Origin: a virus
Direction: 5' to 3' (one strand)
IMG/VR virus record: IMGVR_UViG_3300035698_024626
Span: 1-64,000 of that record
DNA length: 64,000 bases
Part shown: positions 14,377 through 37,942 of the stretch, piece after piece
Position numbering within the stretch: position 1 is the stretch's first letter
How the letters are laid out: each line of letters begins with the position of its first letter
Position numbers and translations under genes: made by a program
The notes under the pieces: model-generated
What the model saw: the letters and a program-made list of their open reading frames with translations, nothing else
The model's database searches: none
What the model was told of the DNA's origin: nothing

Positions 14377-15273
14377 TTAATCATCTCCAAAATCGGTTTC
14401 TTCATCAACCAAAATCGGTTCAATGCTCCCGTTCGGAAATTCTTGCGGTTGACGGAAAACTTTCTTAACATCATTGGCGGCAAGTTTAGTTAGTTGAGCA
14501 TATTTCCCCTGACGGTCTCGCTCGTCCTGTGAATGTTGAAGAGTAGCCACAAGAGAAAAAAAAGTCTCTTTCCCACCCCTAAGTTCATCCAAACGATCCT
14601 TACGAGTGGCAGCTAAACTGCTGTAAATCTTTTGTCGTTCTTTTACTAGAGCATCATACCTATCATTAACACTCTTAAGATAGCGATATCTATCTTCTAA
14701 TTGCCGTTGTTGCATAATTCTAAATTTGACAACATCTTTATCTTCATCTGCTTGCTTAGGGTTTTGAACAAACCATTCCTGCAAATCTGCTATTTGTTGT
14801 TGTAATGATCGAACCAAAATGAGTTGCCTATCTACCAAAATACGATGCTTAAGGAAATCATCTATCTGAAAGAACTCACTCAGTACGATATCTTCAAATT
14901 GACAACACAGGTTACCATAATCCTCAATGTATACATCAACTTCATGCGATTCAAATTGTTTGCGAATAGTTTGATAAAGATGTGTCTTCTTGAATTGTCC
15001 CCTGAACCATTGAGCTTTATCGGATTCGTTTAACCCCGGCTGAGGGGTACACAACATGGGAGCATCAGAAATCCCTATCTCGGCTGGTTGACCCGATTTC
15101 TTGATAATCCCCAGACCTCTGCGTCGTTTGCTAATGGTATCGATGTTCCAACGATAATGACATTGATCCAATAGTACTTCCTGGATTCTTTTGTCAGTCC
15201 ATCCTTGCCGCAAACCATCTTCGAATATTTTGATAGCTTGAGGATCATTGGCCAAACGACGGAATTTAGCCAT
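14377..15273 (-). CDS. Putative terminase small subunit / DNA-binding protein (298 aa)
   Basis: The N-terminus (AIKIFEDGLRQGWTDKRIQE followed by a helix ending in SKRRRGLGI) looks like a helix-turn-helix DNA-binding domain. The middle is long and helical (RQLILVRSLQQQIADLQEWF), the C-terminus acidic (DEETDFGDD). Position early in the packaging operon is right for a terminase small subunit, but no family motif was recognised. It overlaps the sigma-like gene by eight bases. Confidence 0.5.
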   Translation of the reverse strand: MAKFRRLANDPQAIKIFEDGLRQGWTDKRIQEVLLDQCHYRWNIDTISKRRRGLGIIKKSGQPAEIGISDAPMLCTPQPGLNESDKAQWFRGQFKKTHLYQTIRKQFESHEVDVYIEDYGNLCCQFEDIVLSEFFQIDDFLKHRILVDRQLILVRSLQQQIADLQEWFVQNPKQADEDKDVVKFRIMQQRQLEDRYRYLKSVNDRYDALVKERQKIYSSLAATRKDRLDELRGGKETFFSLVATLQHSQDERDRQGKYAQLTKLAANDVKKVFRQPQEFPNGSIEPILVDEETDFGDD

Positions 15274-15808
15274 AACTATCCCTTTCTGTCAAAAGACGTG
15301 CAACTTCTGTACGGACACTATCTATTAAAGCCTTCCTAACTTTATTGCCACTTACTAAATTATCAAAAGCCACCAAGAGTTCACCCGAAAGATTGCTCCG
15401 TAAATATTCCAACGTTTCATTACAAATGGCGCGACCCAAAGGGTCAGCATCAATAGAACTAGACCCAAGAACAACACCCCCAGAATCAGCATTGCCACTA
15501 TCTAGAGGCAGAGCATTGATTAGATTAATGCGAACATGCGCATGGCCAGATGTCTCCACGTCTGATCCAGGACGAAAATACTTATCTCGTTTCAAGTTCT
15601 TGAGACGATTGGATACGTGACTCACCAAATAATTTTCAAGTGGACCTATGGATGGATCGTATCTCTCGACAGCATCGAGACACATCAACCAAACTTCTTG
15701 CGAAACGTCATCACCAGTGTAATACGCAAAAGCCCCATTTTTCCTTCGAATAGTGGCTATGCGTTGGATAATCGGATATGCTTCATCCAGCAGAGTTTGA
15801 CTCACCAT
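15266..15808 (-). CDS. RNA polymerase sigma factor-like protein (180 aa)
   Basis: Residues about 20-80 resemble sigma70 region 2: YYTGDDVSQEVWLMCLDAVE, then ERYDPSIGPLENYLVSHVSN and RLKNLKRDKYFRP. The C-terminal part has region-4-like helices (LEYLRSNLSGELLVAFDNL). Near the head of the late operon, it could be a phage late sigma directing RNA polymerase to the GTGTATAAT boxes found throughout; that link is inference. Start by GAGGACCAAAGCG. Confidence 0.65.
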   Translation of the reverse strand: MVSQTLLDEAYPIIQRIATIRRKNGAFAYYTGDDVSQEVWLMCLDAVERYDPSIGPLENYLVSHVSNRLKNLKRDKYFRPGSDVETSGHAHVRINLINALPLDSGNADSGGVVLGSSSIDADPLGRAICNETLEYLRSNLSGELLVAFDNLVSGNKVRKALIDSVRTEVARLLTERDSYG

Positions 15809-15979: not shown

Positions 15980-16037
15980 TTTATACACCGTCCGATAAAA
16001 TCTCCCCCTATAGTACTATACAGAGCCTTTTGGTCAA
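15980..16037 (-). promoter_or_regulatory. Late-operon promoter region with one TTATCGGAC copy
   Basis: Minus strand: TTGACC (16037-16032), 16-bp spacer, TACTAT (16015-16010), then one TTATCGGAC (15998-15990) and a GTGTATAAA box at 15980-15985. It precedes the whole leftward structural operon. The 9-mer is the same sequence that is massively repeated at 33-36 kb. Confidence 0.55.
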
Positions 16038-16100: not shown

Positions 16101-16217
16101 TATCTAAGTTTATGGGGAAGTGGTCTTTTCAGCAGGGGATGTTACTATGGTAGTGCTGGAACTGTGAGTTCTGCTACTATCCAGAAATACATAGAAAACC
16201 AGAAACACAATGACTAA
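16101..16217 (+). pseudogene. 3' remnant of an IS605-family tnpA
   Basis: In the frame ending TAA at 16217 the sequence reads LWGSGLFSRGCYYGSAGTVS and then SATIQKYIENQKHND, the C-terminus of a Y1 HUH transposase TnpA (compare LWSRGYFV and the terminal KYIENQ of the family). An in-frame TGA lies at 16098 and no catalytic HUH or Tyr region remains. The stub overlaps the tnpB start by eight bases. Confidence 0.8.
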
Positions 16218-17388
16218 CACCAAAGCATTCAAATACAGATTGTATCCAACCAAGAAACAAGAACAAGGTCTACAACAGACTTTGACCACTTGTAGGTTCT
16301 TGTATAACAATGCTTTGGCTCAACGAATTGACACCTACAAAAATACTCAAGAATCAGTCACTTATTGTGACCAAGCAAATACACTTGTAAAACAAAAGAA
16401 CGACTACCAAAAACAAGTCCACTCACAAGTGCTACAAGAATCACTCAAACGTCTTGACACTTCCTTTGGGAACTTCTTTCGTAGAATCAAACAACAGAAG
16501 GCAGGAAAGAAAGTCAAAGCAGGTTTCCCACGTTTCAAGCCAGACCAGCGTTACAATTCGTTCTGTTACCCACAATCAGGTTTTAGATTAACCAACGATA
16601 GTAGGAGAATTACACTCAGTAAGATTGGTGATGTAAGACTCAAATATTCAAGACCAACAGAAGGTAAGATTAAAACTTGTAGAATTGTTCGTGATGTAGA
16701 CCAATGGTTTGTGGTTCTAACTTGTGAGCAAGAAGTTTCTGAGCCACTCAAATCTACTAATCCTACAGTCGGTGTTGATGTGGGTATTAAGACCTTTGCT
16801 TTTCTTTCAGATGGAACGCAGTTTGAGAACCCACGTCATACACGGAACTCAGAAGTTAAGTTAGCACAAACACAACGTAGATTGTCACAGAAAGTAAAAG
16901 GCAGTCAGAACAGAAACAAACAACGACTTGAAGTTGGGAAGGTACATCGTAAAACACGTAGACAACGTGAGGATTTCTTACATAAGTTAAGTAGGGAGTT
17001 AGTAGACAATTACGGTTGTCTTGTGTTTGAGCAGTTAAACATTAAAGGAATGGTTCGTAATCACAAGTTAGCTAAGCATATAAGTGATTGTGCTTGGAGA
17101 AAACTAATTGAGTATACTACATACAAAGCGGAGGAAGCTGGTGTGGAAGTTAGATTAGTTAATCCCAAGAATACAACTCAGATGTGTTCAAGTTGTGGTA
17201 AGATTGTTCCAAAGACTTTAGCAGACAGAACTCATGATTGTTCTCACTGTGGCTTAGTGATGGACAGGGATTTGAATGCTGCTAAGAATATATTAAGTAG
17301 GGTAGGGACTACCCAAAGTTACGCCTATGGAGATTTAACCGCTACTCAAGGACATTGTGTTCTTGAGCAAGTTGAGTCTGTGAAGTAG
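16210..17388 (+). CDS. tnpB: TnpB RNA-guided nuclease (392 aa)
   Basis: OrfB/TnpB, ancestor group of Cas12. N-terminal KAFKYRLYPTKKQEQGLQQT is the family start. RuvC-I is VGVDVGIKTFAFLSDG (Asp), RuvC-II LVFEQLNIKGM (Glu), a zinc finger with CSSCG and CSHCG, and RuvC-III MDRDLNAAKNI (Asp), all intact. It is near the usual length of about 400 aa, so it is probably active. It cuts DNA matching its right-end-derived guide next to a short target-adjacent motif, which favours retention of the element. Confidence 0.95.
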   Translation: MTNTKAFKYRLYPTKKQEQGLQQTLTTCRFLYNNALAQRIDTYKNTQESVTYCDQANTLVKQKNDYQKQVHSQVLQESLKRLDTSFGNFFRRIKQQKAGKKVKAGFPRFKPDQRYNSFCYPQSGFRLTNDSRRITLSKIGDVRLKYSRPTEGKIKTCRIVRDVDQWFVVLTCEQEVSEPLKSTNPTVGVDVGIKTFAFLSDGTQFENPRHTRNSEVKLAQTQRRLSQKVKGSQNRNKQRLEVGKVHRKTRRQREDFLHKLSRELVDNYGCLVFEQLNIKGMVRNHKLAKHISDCAWRKLIEYTTYKAEEAGVEVRLVNPKNTTQMCSSCGKIVPKTLADRTHDCSHCGLVMDRDLNAAKNILSRVGTTQSYAYGDLTATQGHCVLEQVESVK

Positions 17389-27885: not shown

Positions 27886-29115
27886 TTAGTTCAAACTACA
27901 CGGATGTAATTCAAGACCTAATACTTCTTTTTCCTGCTTCTTAGACTGGCACTGAACCGAAGTTCTGCAACCTCCAATCTCCACAGGCGTTTTGCAAAGC
28001 AAACGAGCTTCGCTAAATTTCTGAGTGTCCCTCAGTATTTTTGTTCCTACATTTCTTATATTTACAGCAGCGTTCAAATCTCTATCCATCACTTCACCAC
28101 AATCCAAGCACTTGAACTCTCTATCTTTCAGTGTTAAGTTTTTGTTAATCCATCCACAACCACTACAAGTCTTAGATGATGGTTCAAATCTATCAATCTC
28201 AACAAGTGGTTTACCACTCCATTCTGACTTGTATCGTAGTTGTCTCTTGAACTCAAACCAACCACAATCTGAAACTGCCTTTGATAGACAATGGTTAGAC
28301 ATAATGCCCTTAATGTTCAAATCTTCCATAGCAAATCCTTCATACTTGGCTATTATATGAGCAGTTGCTTTGTGTTGAAAATCTCGTCTGACATTTCTAA
28401 CCTTTCGATGTAGTCTCTGAACTTTGTTACGCTGTTTACTTCTATTGTTACTCTCTTTCTGCTTTCTTGATAATCTTCTCTGTGCTTTCGAGAGTTGTTG
28501 TCCATACTTATTGAGTGTTTTAGGATTTTCTATGACACTCCCATCGCTCATAGTGGCATATGTCTTAATCCCTACATCAATGCCAACCAGTAAGTCTTGC
28601 TTACAAATTGGTTCTTTGACTTTGAGTTCCACATTTACGGCACAATGCCATTGCTCACCATCTTGAGAAATAGTAAGATGTTTTACTTTTCCTTTGATTG
28701 GTCTGTGCTTAACCCACTGAATTTCTCCAATCTTAGGAATGAAAACAAAATGCTTTCCTATTCTAAACTTCTGAGGCACAGCGAAACTGTCGTTTTGCTT
28801 GCCTTTCTTCTTAAACACAGGAAACCGCTTGGTCTTACTGAAACAGTCTTTGAGTGCTCTATCTAATTGACGGGCTACCTGCTGAAGTGATTGACTAAAA
28901 CTCAGTTGAAGAAAATCGTGTTCCTTCTTGAATTGTGGAAGTGAAGTAACCATATCGTGAACAAATACGAACTTCTTTTCGTTTTCGTATTTGTCTTGAT
29001 TTTGTTTAAGAAGAGCATTCCACAAGAAACGAGTATTACCACCGTGCTGTCGTAAGGCAGCAGATTGTTCCTTAGTGGGATAAAGTCTAAACTTGTATGC
29101 TCTTCTAATCTTCAC
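27886..29115 (-). CDS. tnpB: TnpB RNA-guided nuclease (409 aa)
   Basis: Starts with GTG (RRAYKFRLYPTKEQSAALRQ). RuvC-I LVGIDVGIKTYATMSDG, RuvC-II FAMEDLNIKGI, zinc finger CSGCG / CLDCG and RuvC-III VMDRDLNAAVNI are all present, so it looks intact. It differs clearly from the TnpB at 16210, so the two elements arrived separately. The guide is expected to be copied from the flank left of the 27859-27878 hairpin. Confidence 0.95.
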   Translation of the reverse strand: MKIRRAYKFRLYPTKEQSAALRQHGGNTRFLWNALLKQNQDKYENEKKFVFVHDMVTSLPQFKKEHDFLQLSFSQSLQQVARQLDRALKDCFSKTKRFPVFKKKGKQNDSFAVPQKFRIGKHFVFIPKIGEIQWVKHRPIKGKVKHLTISQDGEQWHCAVNVELKVKEPICKQDLLVGIDVGIKTYATMSDGSVIENPKTLNKYGQQLSKAQRRLSRKQKESNNRSKQRNKVQRLHRKVRNVRRDFQHKATAHIIAKYEGFAMEDLNIKGIMSNHCLSKAVSDCGWFEFKRQLRYKSEWSGKPLVEIDRFEPSSKTCSGCGWINKNLTLKDREFKCLDCGEVMDRDLNAAVNIRNVGTKILRDTQKFSEARLLCKTPVEIGGCRTSVQCQSKKQEKEVLGLELHPCSLN

Positions 29116-32291: not shown

Positions 32292-32918
32292 CTAATTTTC
32301 ATGGTTCAAGATTTTTTGTATGGTCGATCGACAAACACCATAATTGTGAGCCAATTCCCTTTGACTCAATTTTGAAGCTTTAATTGCGAGGATTTGATCT
32401 GATGTAAATTTTCGACTATATGCAGGTATTTTTTTTTCACATGGATTGGGCACATGACCCCACACTGTTTTACCTCGTAGCGCCAAAGAAATGTTCGGTT
32501 GCGATACACCGTATTTCTTTGCTAACTGAGCCTGATTCATCTGCCCAGTACGATATAATTCACGCATTTCAACTACGTAAACCTCAGTCAATTTGCTTCT
32601 GGGGTGTTTTGAGCCGCGTATACTGCCAAGCCTGATCGTATCATCAGCATTCTCTCTGGATGTACCATATCTTAAATTCTCTGGGCGCGCATTGTTTTTG
32701 TCACCATCAAGATGCCGGCATTGTAAGCCCTTGGGCCTGGGTCCATAGAATGCTAAACAGACGAGCTTATGAACATAATGTTTACTATTCTGACGAACCG
32801 ATACTCTGGGGTAACCTTCTTTATTGTAGTTCCATTTCAAGATATAGCCCCTTAGACCCCAAATGTTCCCATCGGAGTCTGCAAAATAGCCAGGATACTC
32901 AGGAATCGCTTTCTTCAT
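32292..32918 (-). CDS. NUMOD4/HNH homing endonuclease with two HTH units (208 aa)
   Basis: IPEYPGYFADSDGNIWGLRG is a NUMOD4-like start; HKLVCLAFYGPRPKGLQCRH then LDGDKNNARPENLRYGT is the HNH core. Two HTH units follow (MNQAQLAKKYGVSQPNISLA and LSQRELAHNYGVCRSTIQKI). The ATG lies only five bases from a CGTATAAT box and has no ribosome binding site, so it is probably a leaderless transcript. Confidence 0.88.
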   Translation of the reverse strand: MKKAIPEYPGYFADSDGNIWGLRGYILKWNYNKEGYPRVSVRQNSKHYVHKLVCLAFYGPRPKGLQCRHLDGDKNNARPENLRYGTSRENADDTIRLGSIRGSKHPRSKLTEVYVVEMRELYRTGQMNQAQLAKKYGVSQPNISLALRGKTVWGHVPNPCEKKIPAYSRKFTSDQILAIKASKLSQRELAHNYGVCRSTIQKILNHEN

Positions 32919-32923
32919 ATATA

Positions 32924-32929
32924 ATTATA
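32924..32929 (-). promoter_or_regulatory. -10-like box of leaderless HNH gene
   Basis: Minus strand GAACGTATAATTATATATG, the ATG being the HNH start. At normal -10 to start-site spacing, transcription begins at or next to the ATG. Confidence 0.55.
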
Positions 32930-33330
32930 CGTTCAAGTCGATCGTTTGTTTTGATTTTTTTTGGTCAGTTGTTGAAAACTACAAGGCGATTGATATGGTG
33001 GTCGGGAAAGTGTCACCCCCCTTTTTTTCTTCCTCCTTAGTCGGCGAAGTGCGAGAAAGAGTGTAAACGAAAAGTTGTAGGTCGTTTGAAAATGGAGCCT
33101 ACTATGTTTCGCACCCCTTACGTTATAGGACCATGTAATGTTATCGGAATCTATTTGTATTATACGCCGCCCCCTCCCACATCCAGGTTATCGGACTACC
33201 ATCCACCAAACCTACTTATAGGACTATCTTGCACAAGGTGAGTTATAGGACCATCGAGCATCCTGAGTTATCGGACTGTATCCTACCTTGCTGGACATTA
33301 TCGGACGAAAAATAAATCTTGGGATTCACC

Positions 33331-33359
33331 TTGACAATCGGCAACAGGGATCATATAAT
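33331..33359 (+). promoter_or_regulatory. Consensus sigma70 promoter P1
   Basis: TTGACA, exactly 17 bp, TATAAT: a perfect consensus. It follows the first tract of 9-mers (33123-33306) and drives the small genes starting at 33401. Confidence 0.85.
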
Positions 33360-33400
33360 ACATTGTAGAAACGAGGCTTTTATTATCGGAGGATAGAAAA

Positions 33401-33478
33401 ATGACTATGATACTGGGAAGCGCTGTTATGGTTGTTATCGGGGTTGTTTGGTTTAGGCACATAGCCAAAGACTTATAG
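33401..33478 (+). CDS. Tiny membrane protein (25 aa)
   Basis: MTMILGSAVMVVIGVVWFRH plus five residues, a single hydrophobic helix. The ATG has GGAGGATAGAAAA upstream and lies about 35 bp after P1. Its stop sits inside a TTATAGGAC copy. Perhaps an early host-takeover membrane peptide. Confidence 0.6.
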   Translation: MTMILGSAVMVVIGVVWFRHIAKDL

Positions 33479-33485
33479 GACGACA

Positions 33486-33596
33486 ATGATGAAGACTTTA
33501 TTCGGACTAACAGGAATGGGGTTGGTTATCGGAACCTTGACCGCGATGGGGTTATCAGACCTGTTCGGACGTATGTTATCGGCGATGAGCATCTAG
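33486..33596 (+). CDS. Tiny hydrophobic protein (36 aa)
   Basis: MMKTLFGLTGMGLVIGTLTA then MGLSDLFGRMLSAMSI. Variants of the repeat are used as codons (TTA TCA GAC, GTT ATC GGA). No strong ribosome binding site; possibly coupled to the preceding gene. Confidence 0.45.
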   Translation: MMKTLFGLTGMGLVIGTLTAMGLSDLFGRMLSAMSI

Positions 33597-33627
33597 AACC
33601 GAATAACAAAGAGAAAGGTAGGTTATT

Positions 33628-33753
33628 ATGAGACGCTTGCTATTGTTGGTATGCTTGGCTATAGGACCATGCTCTGTATGGGCCGATAACGAGGGAGTAG
33701 GGTTTATAAGCCCGATAGGAGGATATTATCAGGCGTGGAGAAGCAATGGGTAA
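33628..33753 (+). CDS. Small secreted protein (41 aa)
   Basis: MRRLLLLVCLAIGPCSVWAD is a signal peptide with an A-D-type cleavage site; the mature part is about 21 residues ending GGYYQAWRSNG. Start with AAAGGTAGGTTATT. The stop overlaps the next start. Confidence 0.6.
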   Translation: MRRLLLLVCLAIGPCSVWADNEGVGFISPIGGYYQAWRSNG

Positions 33754-33958
33754 AGCACGACTTGAAATTCCTAATTATGGGACGGCAACTGGATTCTCGG
33801 ACGTACTAGCTATGGGTTATGGGAGGTTACTTGCACTGACGTTATCGGACAATGAGGGATTCGTGGTTGTTACGTTATCGGACAGAAGCGAGAGAGTTAT
33901 CGGACGTGACGCTCTGACCGGCGAAATTACTATAGGACTTTTAATTAAGGAGCGATAA
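33746..33958 (+). CDS. Small protein with embedded repeats (70 aa)
   Basis: ATGGGTAA overlap with the previous gene. Four 9-mer copies fall inside the gene in different frames, giving TLSDNEGF, TLSDRSE, RVIGRD and TIGLL. Beta-rich; reminiscent of a small SH3-like protein. Function unknown. Confidence 0.6.
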   Translation: MGKARLEIPNYGTATGFSDVLAMGYGRLLALTLSDNEGFVVVTLSDRSERVIGRDALTGEITIGLLIKER

Positions 33959-33959
33959 T

Positions 33960-34016
33960 ATGGGATCAATATCGGACATTGAAGCTAGACTGGAAAATTG
34001 GAAGATGCGATCATAA
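33960..34016 (+). CDS. Micro-ORF (18 aa)
   Basis: MGSISDIEARLENWKMRS, preceded by AAGGAGCGATAAT, overlapping the next ATG (TAATG). Contains ATATCGGAC. Coding status uncertain. Confidence 0.35.
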   Translation: MGSISDIEARLENWKMRS

Positions 34017-34114
34017 TGTTATCGGACGGAGTTGAAACACTGGATTCTCGAACCTCGTCCGATAGCGACAAAGAATGTGGACATTATATTCGGACGCCTA
34101 ATATCGACGACTAG
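34016..34114 (+). CDS. Micro-ORF (32 aa)
   Basis: MLSDGVETLDSRTSSDSDKE onward, starting with the repeat itself (ATG TTA TCG GAC). Overlaps the preceding stop. Acidic; no family. A terminator-like hairpin follows. Confidence 0.4.
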   Translation: MLSDGVETLDSRTSSDSDKECGHYIRTPNIDD

Positions 34115-34134
34115 CCCGATAACCAAAAGGAAGT

Positions 34135-34162
34135 AGGTTCGATTTTATCGGACCTTTTCCTT
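34135..34162 (+). terminator. Terminator-like hairpin containing the 9-mer (copy A)
   Basis: AGGTTCGAT / ATCGGACCT (9 bp with one T-G pair, loop TTT) followed by TTTCCTTT. The 3' arm is a repeat copy. The same hairpin recurs at 34903 after the next gene. Confidence 0.6.
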
Positions 34163-34311
34163 TGCCCCGGCGAAACATTATAGGACGTTCGGCGATTCGG
34201 GATGTTATCGGACCCTTCTCGGTCGGGCATTATCGGACTTGAAACCGTAAGGTTATAGGACTATGCTGGGGGAAAAATTATCGGACGAGGCTGCGTTTAT
34301 CGGACCTGACG

Positions 34312-34317
34312 TATAAT
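34312..34317 (+). promoter_or_regulatory. -10-like box at end of array tract (TGACGTATAAT)
   Basis: The 9-mer tract 34145-34305 ends in GGACCTGACGTATAATAGC, with TGTGTG about 18 bp later. A parallel copy is at 35037. Fits the GTATAAT box family. Confidence 0.45.
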
Positions 34318-34460
34318 AGCTTACCCTGTGTGTTGTAGGGCATGTTCTGATAATATCGCAACAGGTCCGTTTTACTTAATTATGCGGACCAGGACGTTAC
34401 TTGCCGATAATAGCCGCGATTCTAGTCTAAAAACGCGGAAACTTTTTTCTCACATTTCAC

Positions 34461-34489
34461 TTGACGTTATACGATAACAAAGCTATAAT
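34461..34489 (+). promoter_or_regulatory. Sigma70 promoter P2
   Basis: TTGACG, 17 bp, TATAAT, about 47 bp before the ATG at 34536. Upstream (34387-34450) is an element GGACCAGGACGT...TTGCCGATAATA that is repeated before P3. Confidence 0.8.
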
Positions 34490-34535
34490 AGAGTATAGAA
34501 TCGAACGATGGATTATCAGACCTAGGAGAAACGCG

Positions 34536-34886
34536 ATGGGTAGGATTATGGGACGAACGGGAAGTCAAGTCTTATCGGACAGCGCCGCTCGTTATCGGCT
34601 GGCGCGTAGTCGGACGGTAAAATGCCAACATTATCGGCACGGTCCGAAAAACTGGGATTGTTGGGTAGTTGGGCCATTTCATAGTCGATATTATGGGACT
34701 ACTGGTTTTGGGACCACCCGAAGTAAGGCTAAAGTGGCACTTGAATACTTACTAGCCACAGAGTTCGGTTTTATCGGGCGACTAATGTTATCGGCAATCG
34801 ATTCCGCCGATAACGTAGGAATCCGTTATGGGGCGTTAGATACTCCGATAACGATACAAGATTTATTGGGACGTGCCGGCGCGTAA
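34536..34886 (+). CDS. Hypothetical protein within the array (116 aa)
   Basis: The ATG at 34536 follows TAGGAGAAACGCG; the frame is open upstream only into the promoter. Contains RSRTVKCQHYRHGPKNWDCW then VVGPFHSRYYGTTGFGTTRS, and a C-terminal helix. Several repeat variants are used as codons (LSD, IMG, IG). The 'YG.TGFGtTRskAkvaL' segment resembles small phage proteins of unknown role. Confidence 0.65.
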   Translation: MGRIMGRTGSQVLSDSAARYRLARSRTVKCQHYRHGPKNWDCWVVGPFHSRYYGTTGFGTTRSKAKVALEYLLATEFGFIGRLMLSAIDSADNVGIRYGALDTPITIQDLLGRAGA

Positions 34887-34902
34887 TATAGGACTAAGAA
34901 CC

Positions 34903-34930
34903 GGGTTCGATTTATCGGACCCTTTTCTTC
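34903..34930 (+). terminator. Terminator-like hairpin containing the 9-mer (copy B)
   Basis: GGGTTCGAT / ATCGGACCC (9 bp with a T-G pair, loop TT) followed by TTTTCTT, 16 bp after the 116-aa gene. Parallel of the hairpin at 34135. Confidence 0.65.
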
Positions 34931-35036
34931 GCGCCCATGACGATATTATCGGACCTGTGGGACGGCTGCATTATCGGACCTAAACCAGAGTAGATTTATC
35001 GGGCCTTTGAGCGGCAAGTTTTTATAGGACGTGACG

Positions 35037-35042
35037 TATAAT
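35037..35042 (+). promoter_or_regulatory. -10-like box at end of array tract (TGACGTATAAT)
   Basis: TTATAGGACGTGACGTATAATC ends the tract 34912-35030, again followed by TGTGTG. No gene begins directly after it; it may drive an untranslated RNA or the gene at 35825. Confidence 0.4.
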
Positions 35043-35576
35043 CATTTGGCCTGTGTGCTCGTATCCACGTTTTTATAAGCCACGACCGAGAAAATCGATC
35101 ACCCTCACAGCCTTGAATCGGAACTATTATAGGACCGGCGGAGAAATATTATCGGACTACAGCCAGTTTTAGTTATCGGACGGAGCTGCCATTATCGGAC
35201 GTGGCTAAGAATCGTTTACTTCGTGTGATAATAACCCTCCATTTGACCAATTAAACGCCTCTTTTGTGTTATAGGGCGCATTTCTTATAGGATGTGGCCA
35301 ATAAAATCGATTTTTTGCCGGTTATAGGACCAAAACGGGCGATATAGGACTAGCATAACCAGTCTTATCGGTCGGTCCGGATAAAGGGTCCGAGAAAATA
35401 GCCCATTCTAGCCTAAAAAACGTGTATAGTTATGGGAATACGCGATTGTGGCGCGTGAACAGCGTTATTATAGGAGCCTAAAAAGGGACGTGTTTCCTAT
35501 AGGACCAGGACGTAGTTTGCCGATAATATCCCGCCTGGCGCTGTCAAAAACGGCGATTTTTCTTTTGTATAACAAT

Positions 35577-35605
35577 TTGACCCTCCCGTATAACTATGGT
35601 ATGAT
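35577..35605 (+). promoter_or_regulatory. Sigma70 promoter P3
   Basis: TTGACC, 17 bp, TATGAT, preceded (35505-35565) by a second copy of the GGACCAGGACGT...TTGCCGATAATA element. The leader to the ATG at 35825 is about 210 bases and carries more 9-mer copies. Confidence 0.7.
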
Positions 35606-35824
35606 CTTATGATAAGAGAAACTGAGGTTCGATAATAAAAGGCGTTTTCGCGCCCGATTTATCGGACACCCGCCCCACGGGTGTTATGGGACGCAACCGT
35701 TCTGGTTATCGGTCCCACCTTAGTCCGAAAAAAAACTTAGTCTGATAACGCGATCTACTCGTCCTATAATCTGGGGCGGCGTAGTCACGGGTTATAGGAC
35801 GGGGTTCAGTTATGGGAGTCTACC

Positions 35825-36148
35825 ATGAGTGAAACCGATACCATGACCAGTCAGGCAACCGTTGTAGAGTTTGGTGCTGACGATCTGATTCGAGTCGCTA
35901 AGGCTTACGCTGAAGCCAAGCGTATTGTCGATGCCAGTAGTCGGTACGACAATCTCGAAGATGCTGTCGCTGCGCTTACCGAAGCGTGGGAACAGTTGGA
36001 GAGTCAGGCCAATAACGGCGGAAGGTACACTCCGGCTAAGGAGTTGGGGTTTGGGTCTGATAACGCGGCGACCATCGCTGATGCGTTATTGGGACGTAAG
36101 CCGACCGTCGGCGCTACTCGCAAGGCGTTTGCCGCATTGGGCAAGTAG
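35825..36148 (+). CDS. Hypothetical alpha-helical protein (107 aa)
   Basis: MSETDTMTSQATVVEFGADD, then helices with AEAKRIVDASSRYDNLEDAV and AALTEAWEQLESQANNGG. GGGAG before the ATG. Its codon use is GC-richer and it contains only one repeat-like site (TTATTGGGAC). No family recognised. Confidence 0.65.
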   Translation: MSETDTMTSQATVVEFGADDLIRVAKAYAEAKRIVDASSRYDNLEDAVAALTEAWEQLESQANNGGRYTPAKELGFGSDNAATIADALLGRKPTVGATRKAFAALGK

Positions 36149-37942
36149 TCCGCGTGTCTCTCGTACCGCGCTTTGGGTATAGTCACCGCTCCGAGCGCGG
36201 ACCGACAGACATGTTATAGGACCGTCCGGTAACGACGGACGTTATATGGCGCGCTAGACCGATAAGTCGCGCTGGTTCGATCTGTCAGTCGGGCACGAAG
36301 TCCGATAAGTGCGGGGGGGCGATTCGTTATCGCTAGAACCGTCAGTCGCGCAAAGCGTGCGGATTTAGTCAACGGATTATCGGTCTTAGGGTCTATAGTC
36401 TGTATCCGTCCGTGAGCACGTCTAAGCCGCTCATTCCGGGAGGTCGATATAGGCAGAGAGTCCGCGCCTAAGTCGGTGGAAACCGTCTTCGCGAATCATC
36501 TGGGGTAGCGCCTAGTGTGACGGATGTTAGTAGCGTAGTCCGAGCAAGTAACCGATGGTAAAGCGTGCTTTTTTTGACTCCGAAAATCGTCTAAGTAGGC
36601 TATTGGTCTGCCCTTCGCGGGTGGGGGTCGTAGTCAACATTCGTTTTTCCCTATATCGCAAATCGCCGTAGGGATAGGTCGTCAGGCGCGCCGCACGTCA
36701 ATTTCGTCACAACGATTTCACTGAACAATCTACAATCGCTCGACGCCAAATAGCTATGCGGCAAGGGCCGTTGGTTTAGTGGATAGTGTCGGAACTTCTG
36801 TTGTTCGTCTGATGCGACTGGTGTTTACCTGTAGCAAGGTACGTTCTGGTCGGGACGCTGAACGACTACGGCGCAACGGCGAGCGTAAAATCAGGTCAAA
36901 AACCGACTGTCCGGTCTGGTGGCACGCTCCGAAACACTCCGTTGTAAATCAAGACTTCATAGAAACCATCCACGGCGTGCGACTGGCAGTATCAGTCAGG
37001 CTGTGGGTGTAAGTCATATAAACTGTGTGCGCACCGAAAGGTGTGGGAGCAATTGGGTGGCCCGGCTAATAACTGGGGCGCTCAGTTGTCGATTAGGATC
37101 GGTGGGGATTCTAGTCAACTTTTCTGTAGGATGTACGACGATGAAAGCGGTCATACGGCCGCGAATAATCCCGCATCCGAAAGCTATGTTGTCGATACTG
37201 GTGAGACGGGTAGCCCCGCCGTAGCGCCGGGTTCAAGTCCCGGAAAGTCCAAGCCAGTTGCCAAGTATGGGGAAGTTCCCCAAGCGTTATCGACAGCATA
37301 GCCAGGCGCGCCTAGTGCTGATAAAGTCACAAAATTGGGTTTGGCCGACTGGGGAGTCGCAGACCTCTTAGGATGTGCTGGGCGCGTTTGGGTATGCTGT
37401 TAAGTATTAGGAGTGGTACCGAAGTTTCCCTAGTTTTTGAACGTAAGTTCATAATCGAGCGCGGGGTTAGCGTCACAATTATCCTTCATATCTGTAGTTA
37501 CAAACTTTAGTTTTCACTCTTTCTTGTACCCCCTAGTTATCACACTACAAAAACTACACCCCTACAAAAACACACTTTAGGGGGTCACCAGAACACTTTC
37601 GGGGCGTTTTAATTAGTCTAGTCTTAGCGTGCATCTGTCCCAGGCGCGCCAAGAGAGAACTGTTCTGTAGCCTTTTTGGTGGTTGGTGCTCTTTTGCTTG
37701 TAGGTGGGGTATGGGGTAGATTGGATAAAGGGGGTTTACAGAGTCGTGAGAGCGGCTTCTGGCACTGCAAACAGACAATCGTCACCAAGTCCGTTTACCC
37801 CGTATATGTGGGATCGTCAACCACTCCGTGGGAATCTAAACCACTTTGTGGGAGTGAAGTACGATAGGGAAAAACACATAGTATCGTCGGATTCCGGTAG
37901 TATTATCTGTCGGGCAACAATACGTATTTCAGGGTACAAAAA
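36149..37942 (+). other. Gene-free tract, 1.8 kb
   Basis: No ORF with a convincing start and ribosome binding site. The first 500 bp are rich in AGTC/CGTC motifs with a hairpin GTCCG/CGGAC near 36223-36239. The 10-mer CAGGCGCGCC, containing the palindrome GGCGCGCC, occurs three times (36683, 37303, 37641). tRNA-like fragments are present: a D-arm-like stretch at 36765-36810 and a T-arm-like GGTTCAAGTCC hairpin at 37227-37243, but no complete tRNA could be folded. It may be a replication, packaging or RNA locus. Confidence 0.5.

Follow-up and report, generated by a model that had tools for sequence, protein, structure and literature searches.

The stretch of viral DNA analysed here, hereafter the window, comprises 64,000 nucleotides (positions 1 to 64,000) of the IMG/VR record IMGVR_UViG_3300035698_024626, a 76.8-kb virus fragment. 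It carries a dense array of the 9-mer TTATVGGAC, almost all in one orientation, at the point where its two blocks of genes diverge, and this array is probably a polar, distributed operator region for a single putative transcription regulator. Exact copies of the 9-mer number 39 in the window, against a mean of 1.5 and a maximum of 7 in 100 dinucleotide shuffles. Between 33123 and 36223, 35 copies lie on the plus strand and one on the minus strand (at 35761), and a second reversed copy follows just past the array at 36300. The only other copies in the window are at 15990 (minus) and 32277 (plus), with two more in the remainder of the record at 64533 (plus) and 75936 (minus). These scattered copies are at chance level, that at 15990 excepted, and nowhere else in the 76.8-kb record does the density equal that of the array. 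An initial annotation of this DNA had described a dense one-strand array, spaced by about 25 bp, at a divergent junction. All three features hold: the start-to-start distances have a main peak at 22–27 bp, with minor peaks at 18–19 and 33–35 bp, and the direction of the genes switches at ~33 kb, where the GC skew switches as well. Two features had been understated, namely the numerous copies with one mismatch in the array (such as TTATNAGAC, TTATCGGGC and ATATCGGAC) and the enrichment on the opposite strand of the core TTATCGG, which there lacks the final AC (6 copies within the 3.1-kb array vs 11 in the other 73.7 kb). The array and its parts are as follows.

33123–36223, plus strand: the array, with 35 copies of TTATVGGAC and weaker variants, over the rightward control region and a cassette of small genes
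33123–33149, plus strand: first tandem pair, TTATAGGAC and TTATCGGAA, 18 bp apart, followed by a −10-like/C-rich block
33188–33306, plus strand: run A, sites upstream of promoter P1
34145–34317, plus strand: run B, seven sites, the last 15 bp before a TATAAT
34912–35042, plus strand: run C, laid out as run B, the last site 15 bp before a TATAAT
35127–35212, plus strand: run D, four sites, the final pair 19 bp apart, with a shared downstream block GTTTAC..GTGTG

The array is a conserved property of a family of phages that are large and uncultured. A terminase search of IMG/VR returned 32 loci, from relatives whose terminases are 63–81% identical, on contigs of up to 181 kb. Among the larger relatives, those with a mapped array have one block each, of 2.4–4.4 kb, with 13–55 copies mostly on one strand. 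Two records, G013 and G015, carry arrays identical in spacing and opposite in orientation, and are therefore probably the same virus; they were counted once where possible. Relatives of full length have this block at the divergence point of their two transcription arms, which is also the GC-skew minimum. Each block holds a common set of small genes (families 21, 59, 3, 101 and 106), and the polar signal at the junction is kept together with them. Individual copies are not conserved by position, while copy number is kept, and the first tandem pair recurs in relatives as GTTATCGGAC-N9-GTTATCGGAC-N5-TATATTACC. The array region had no near DNA match, and among the listed phage records no terminase match exceeded ~32% identity. 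With the array, the likely master control region comes to light for a group of phages in which no close cultured relative was found.

In 360 site contexts taken from 17 array regions, only the 9-mer and a purine preference directly before it carry information, and the spacers are random. Counts of single mismatches in 33.7 kb of arrays show that T2 and G7 are nearly strict. Other positions are more permissive, with C or T tolerated at A3, C at T4, A at G6, G or T at A8, and A or T at C9, and a preference of C>A=G>T at position 5. Full sites in these arrays are 254 forward and 19 reverse; both strands are enriched in the core TTATCGG (315 vs 99), and the terminal AC is retained on one. Since the profile is graded and the spacers are random, the repeat unit is a predicted protein-type binding site. 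About half of 191 array copies fall within open reading frames (ORFs) of at least 60 amino acids, in all three phases (32/39/25), which argues that selection acts on the nucleic acid; it is also why the peptides LSD, xIG and YRT recur. The tripeptide LSD, which can be encoded in 72 ways, is encoded as TTATCGGAC in 29 of 46 cases in array ORFs vs 5 of 121 elsewhere, a contrast that is partly built in because the arrays were defined by the motif.

Single copies of the site also occur at two promoters outside the array.

32924–32929, minus strand: −10 hexamer (TATAAT) of the leftward promoter PL
15990–15998, minus strand: late-promoter copy, TTATCGGAC, oriented with late transcription and conserved in 10 genomes
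15266–15808, minus strand: late-operon gene with a sigma-70 region 2 (Pfam PF04542, E=2.6e-6), starting ~180 bp downstream of the late copy

At the leftward promoter, seven relatives have one site on the strand opposite to the array, with the motif starting 64–65 bp before TATAAT and an A-tract between the two. The late-promoter copy is present in all 10 genomes where the late promoter was read, and follows a TATA-rich palindrome (TATATATA) at a near-fixed distance of 10–13 bp. The initial annotation had taken the copy at 15990 as a hint of a transcription-linked regulator, and its conservation supports this. Site orientation matches the direction of transcription in three units (the rightward array, the leftward promoter and the late promoter), on both strands. 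Single copies at opposite-facing and late promoters, together with the oriented array, most likely mark the control of phage transcription by one regulatory protein.

Within the array, the sites are interleaved with promoters and small genes.

33331–33359, plus strand: P1, sigma-70 consensus promoter, TTGACA-17-TATAAT
34461–34489, plus strand: P2, sigma-70 consensus promoter, TTGACG-17-TATAAT
35577–35605, plus strand: P3, sigma-70-like promoter, TTGACC-17-TATGAT
33401–33478, plus strand: ORF for a 25-amino-acid membrane-like peptide, read directly from the sequence, with its stop codon inside a site (TTA TAG GAC at 33473)
33746–33958, plus strand: 70-amino-acid cassette protein of family 21, with sites inside, present in 7 of 8 compared family genomes
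34536–34886, plus strand: 116-amino-acid cassette protein of family 3, with sites inside, present in 8 of 8 compared family genomes
35825–36148, plus strand: 107-amino-acid conserved protein of family 106, at the end of the array

Strong sigma-70 promoters (TTGAC-17-TATAAT) sit between runs of sites within the arrays, and tandem pairs 18–19 bp apart are recurrent. A −10-like hexamer begins 13–16 bp past a site in 14 cases, against 5.8 in shuffles (maximum 13 in 200).

Position weights, conservation, orientation and selection within ORFs are properties of the sites themselves; from them we infer both that a protein binds the sites and that this protein regulates transcription. One sequence-specific DNA-binding regulator would recognise the asymmetric site (R)TTATCGGAC. 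By occupying dozens of close sites, it would control the rightward small-gene (probably early) region, and single sites would bring the divergent leftward promoter and the late promoter within its reach. The sign of this regulation is the least certain part. A stoperator-like mode, in which a roadblock or silencing coat would keep the region off while the regulator is present, is favoured here, because many correctly oriented sites lie within transcribed genes. At the leftward promoter, activation is also possible, since the geometry of the site there is fixed at −72, and a fixed spacing could equally mean this. The regulator may be encoded by the host.

Several observations weigh against an operator array with one regulator. 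The leftward-promoter site is degenerate or lost in the window itself. The spacing between the late site and its −10 varies from 13 to 32 bp, the near-fixed distance being to the upstream TATATATA palindrome instead, and a 5-kb check of G011, the most distant relative examined, did not reveal the late copy. Most of the consensus sigma-70 promoters are free of site overlap. Two unrelated phages, G014 (98 kb) and G019 (64 kb), have end repeats and belong to a group of their own, with hardly any proteins in common with the family; they carry 49 and 31 copies of the same 9-mer in both orientations, concentrated in intergenic regions. A cross-family search revealed no DNA-binding family common to all carriers. 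No candidate for a stoperator-type repressor (helix-turn-helix plus stoperator domain) emerged from that search or from Pfam and PHROGs scans confined to conserved proteins.

The closest counterpart of the array system is the stoperators of cluster A mycobacteriophages, which are read by repressors such as L5 gp71 and that of TipsytheTRex, and consist of about 20–30 sites of 13 bp spread genome-wide in short intergenic gaps (PMC9283540). Both systems have an asymmetric site in many copies at and downstream of promoters, one reading protein, and an orientation tied to transcription, which here holds for the rightward array and the leftward and late promoters. Unlike stoperators, the present sites are 9–10 bp long and are not dispersed in short intergenic gaps: 13–55 copies form one dense block of 2.4–4.4 kb, also inside ORFs, and elsewhere the sites are near chance apart from the two promoter copies; no repressor gene was found. 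SPBRE of Bacillus phage SPbeta offers a second comparison, as an element repeated through a large phage genome; it is a 15-bp intergenic motif derived from nine chromatin affinity precipitation (ChAP) peaks and read by the master repressor MrpR (PMC10516654). An MrpR-like degenerate integrase was ruled out here, as the conserved tyrosine recombinase keeps R, K, HxxR, H and Y, unlike MrpR; another protein may be the binder. The MotA boxes of T4 middle promoters are 9-bp sites, one per promoter at about −30. They share with the present sites their length and a position immediately before a −10 that has no good −35, but the sites described here are centred at about −23 at the array −10s and at −72 at the leftward promoter, and occur in tandem arrays. 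Literature matches listed for the 9-mer were unrelated, and further literature searches brought nothing relevant.

A bolder reading, to which we give tentative credence, is that a 9-mer array of one polarity, repeated 13–55 times through promoters and all three frames of a gene cassette, represents an undescribed regulatory nucleoprotein system. Its reader, possibly the host's and exploited by several unrelated phages, would silence or license the control region as a unit and use single sites to gate the leftward and late promoters. Some 250 natural variants of one site mean that the binder should be obtainable by pull-down and the grammar can be read directly. Polar sites inside genes also offer a test of whether asymmetric binding alone stops or steers RNA polymerase, which is an open question for stoperators.

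Among the alternatives, a replication origin with iterons survives best, and we consider it unlikely. In this case, a phage initiator bound to same-direction repeats would melt the DNA near a T-rich tract, and replication would start at the divergence point. Iterons of lambda O, P1 RepA and P4 alpha are direct repeats about 20–25 bp apart, in 4–20 copies, and may lie in coding DNA, as in lambda O. The array resembles them in its direct repeats 22–27 bp apart near a T-rich tract and in its sites inside coding sequence, and it lies at the GC-skew minimum in full relatives. The skew tracks gene strand rather than arm, however: in the left arm of G003, it is +0.11 in plus-strand genes and −0.20 in minus-strand genes, so that the switch at the array is not independent evidence of an origin. 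Iterons are also not known to have conserved solitary copies at late promoters, whereas here one is kept at the distant late promoter, many kb off, and another, on the opposite strand, at the leftward promoter; site density continues through 3 kb of genes. The genes beside the array are small ORFs, among which no initiator was recognised. DnaA boxes (TTATNCACA) are likewise 9-mers that begin TTAT followed by a free base, but the second half here is GGAC, not CACA. DnaA domain IV (PF08299) was found in none of 13 records, with control genomes positive; a host DnaA may still serve. The primase or replication-protein sites proposed in the initial annotation are consequently not supported, in contrast to its polar signal and transcription-linked regulator, which are.

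Sites for a host protein, acting either as decoys by which a host regulator is titrated or as targets of a host factor needed at these promoters, are a distinctly unlikely explanation. The same 9-mer is carried by two phage groups with almost no genes in common, which makes a common, possibly host-encoded reader plausible, and no phage-encoded binder was found. Pure titration, on the other hand, needs neither one orientation, nor promoter-linked positions, nor conserved solitary copies. A third other phage, G016, has tandem pairs 17–19 bp apart ahead of a −10-like sequence. The search for a binder common to the phage groups gave weak links only (an AAA ATPase, a ~60-amino-acid conserved protein, a kinase-like protein and HNH), none of them convincing, and a zinc-ribbon FmdB-like protein shared with G016 was set aside as generic. 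The ~60-amino-acid protein (RVSKEALDKLEADLR..RHPSIGKTF; G000 75583–75774 and seven relatives) is present in all eight compared family genomes and has a homologue in the unrelated G014 (E 1e-9). It looks histone-like by eye only, and a Pfam search gave no match.

An RNA-level signal, also raised in the initial annotation, has little chance of being correct. Here, UUAUCGGAC repeats of the early transcript would serve in antitermination or as targets of an RNA-binding protein, and the strand bias agrees with this. The conserved copies at the leftward and late promoters lie upstream of the transcription starts and so cannot signal at the RNA level in those transcripts, and the unrelated phages carry both orientations in intergenic DNA. 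Around the repeats, no RNA fold is conserved: folding z-scores are barely below control (−0.5 vs −0.1; −0.8 vs −0.1), a repeated ~110-nt element has no consensus structure, and Rfam gave no family at the gathering threshold and one chance sR19 match. A covarying CTTGCNNGACNNGCAAG hairpin does occur, a single time per array, in nine relatives, with a 7-bp stem, a GAC loop and compensatory changes at two pairs (covariation score 0.30, reached in 0 of 500 shuffles). As a real RNA-like element, it is suggestive only, resting on nine related sequences, and it is degenerate in the window (33216–33240). The family 3 cassette protein is modelled, with low confidence, as an alpha-beta-beta-beta-alpha fold that is weakly like a double-stranded RNA-binding domain; its best structure matches (E 0.1–0.3) include such domains. 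The family 21 protein gave a good structure model without a significant structural match.

A partition or tethering centromere of a plasmid-like prophage is highly improbable: plasmid centromeres such as parC or stbS are also direct-repeat arrays beside promoters, but no ParA, ParM or TubZ-type gene was seen beside the array (no dedicated genome-wide search was made), and the late-promoter copy would be left unexplained.

With regard to the host, peptide deformylase and sigma-70 promoters indicate a bacterium. Proteins encoded by relatives (G003) include a BrxL-like ATPase/protease, peptide deformylase, ThyX, dCMP deaminase, a sigma-like protein and a catalytically complete tyrosine recombinase. 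A phage relative with array, cassette and a terminase ~70% identical was also found in CP070695.1, titled Candidatus Heimdallarchaeota bin6 chromosome, which is a 4.9-Mb metagenome-assembled genome (MAG). It adjoins a run of N and a short tandem repeat, followed by a CTP synthase gene; this looks like a scaffolding chimera and gives no evidence for an Asgard host. Genome contigs with three spaced copies of the 9-mer were mostly short tandem repeats rather than regulatory arrays; in Prevotella and other MAGs, these are repeats of TTATRGGAC with a 9-bp period, unrelated to the phage array.

Beyond the array, the region from 36150 to 37500 is G+C-rich and without conserved ORFs, with D-arm-like and T-arm-like pieces ~450 bp apart recognised by eye. 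ARAGORN called no tRNA in the window, and tRNA genes (Gly, Asp, Met) are found in the array regions of three relatives. The window also encodes two TnpB/OrfB-type genes with a Cas12f1-like TNB domain (16210–17388 and 27886–29115) and several HNH homing-endonuclease-like genes with helix-turn-helix repeats, for example at 32292–32918.

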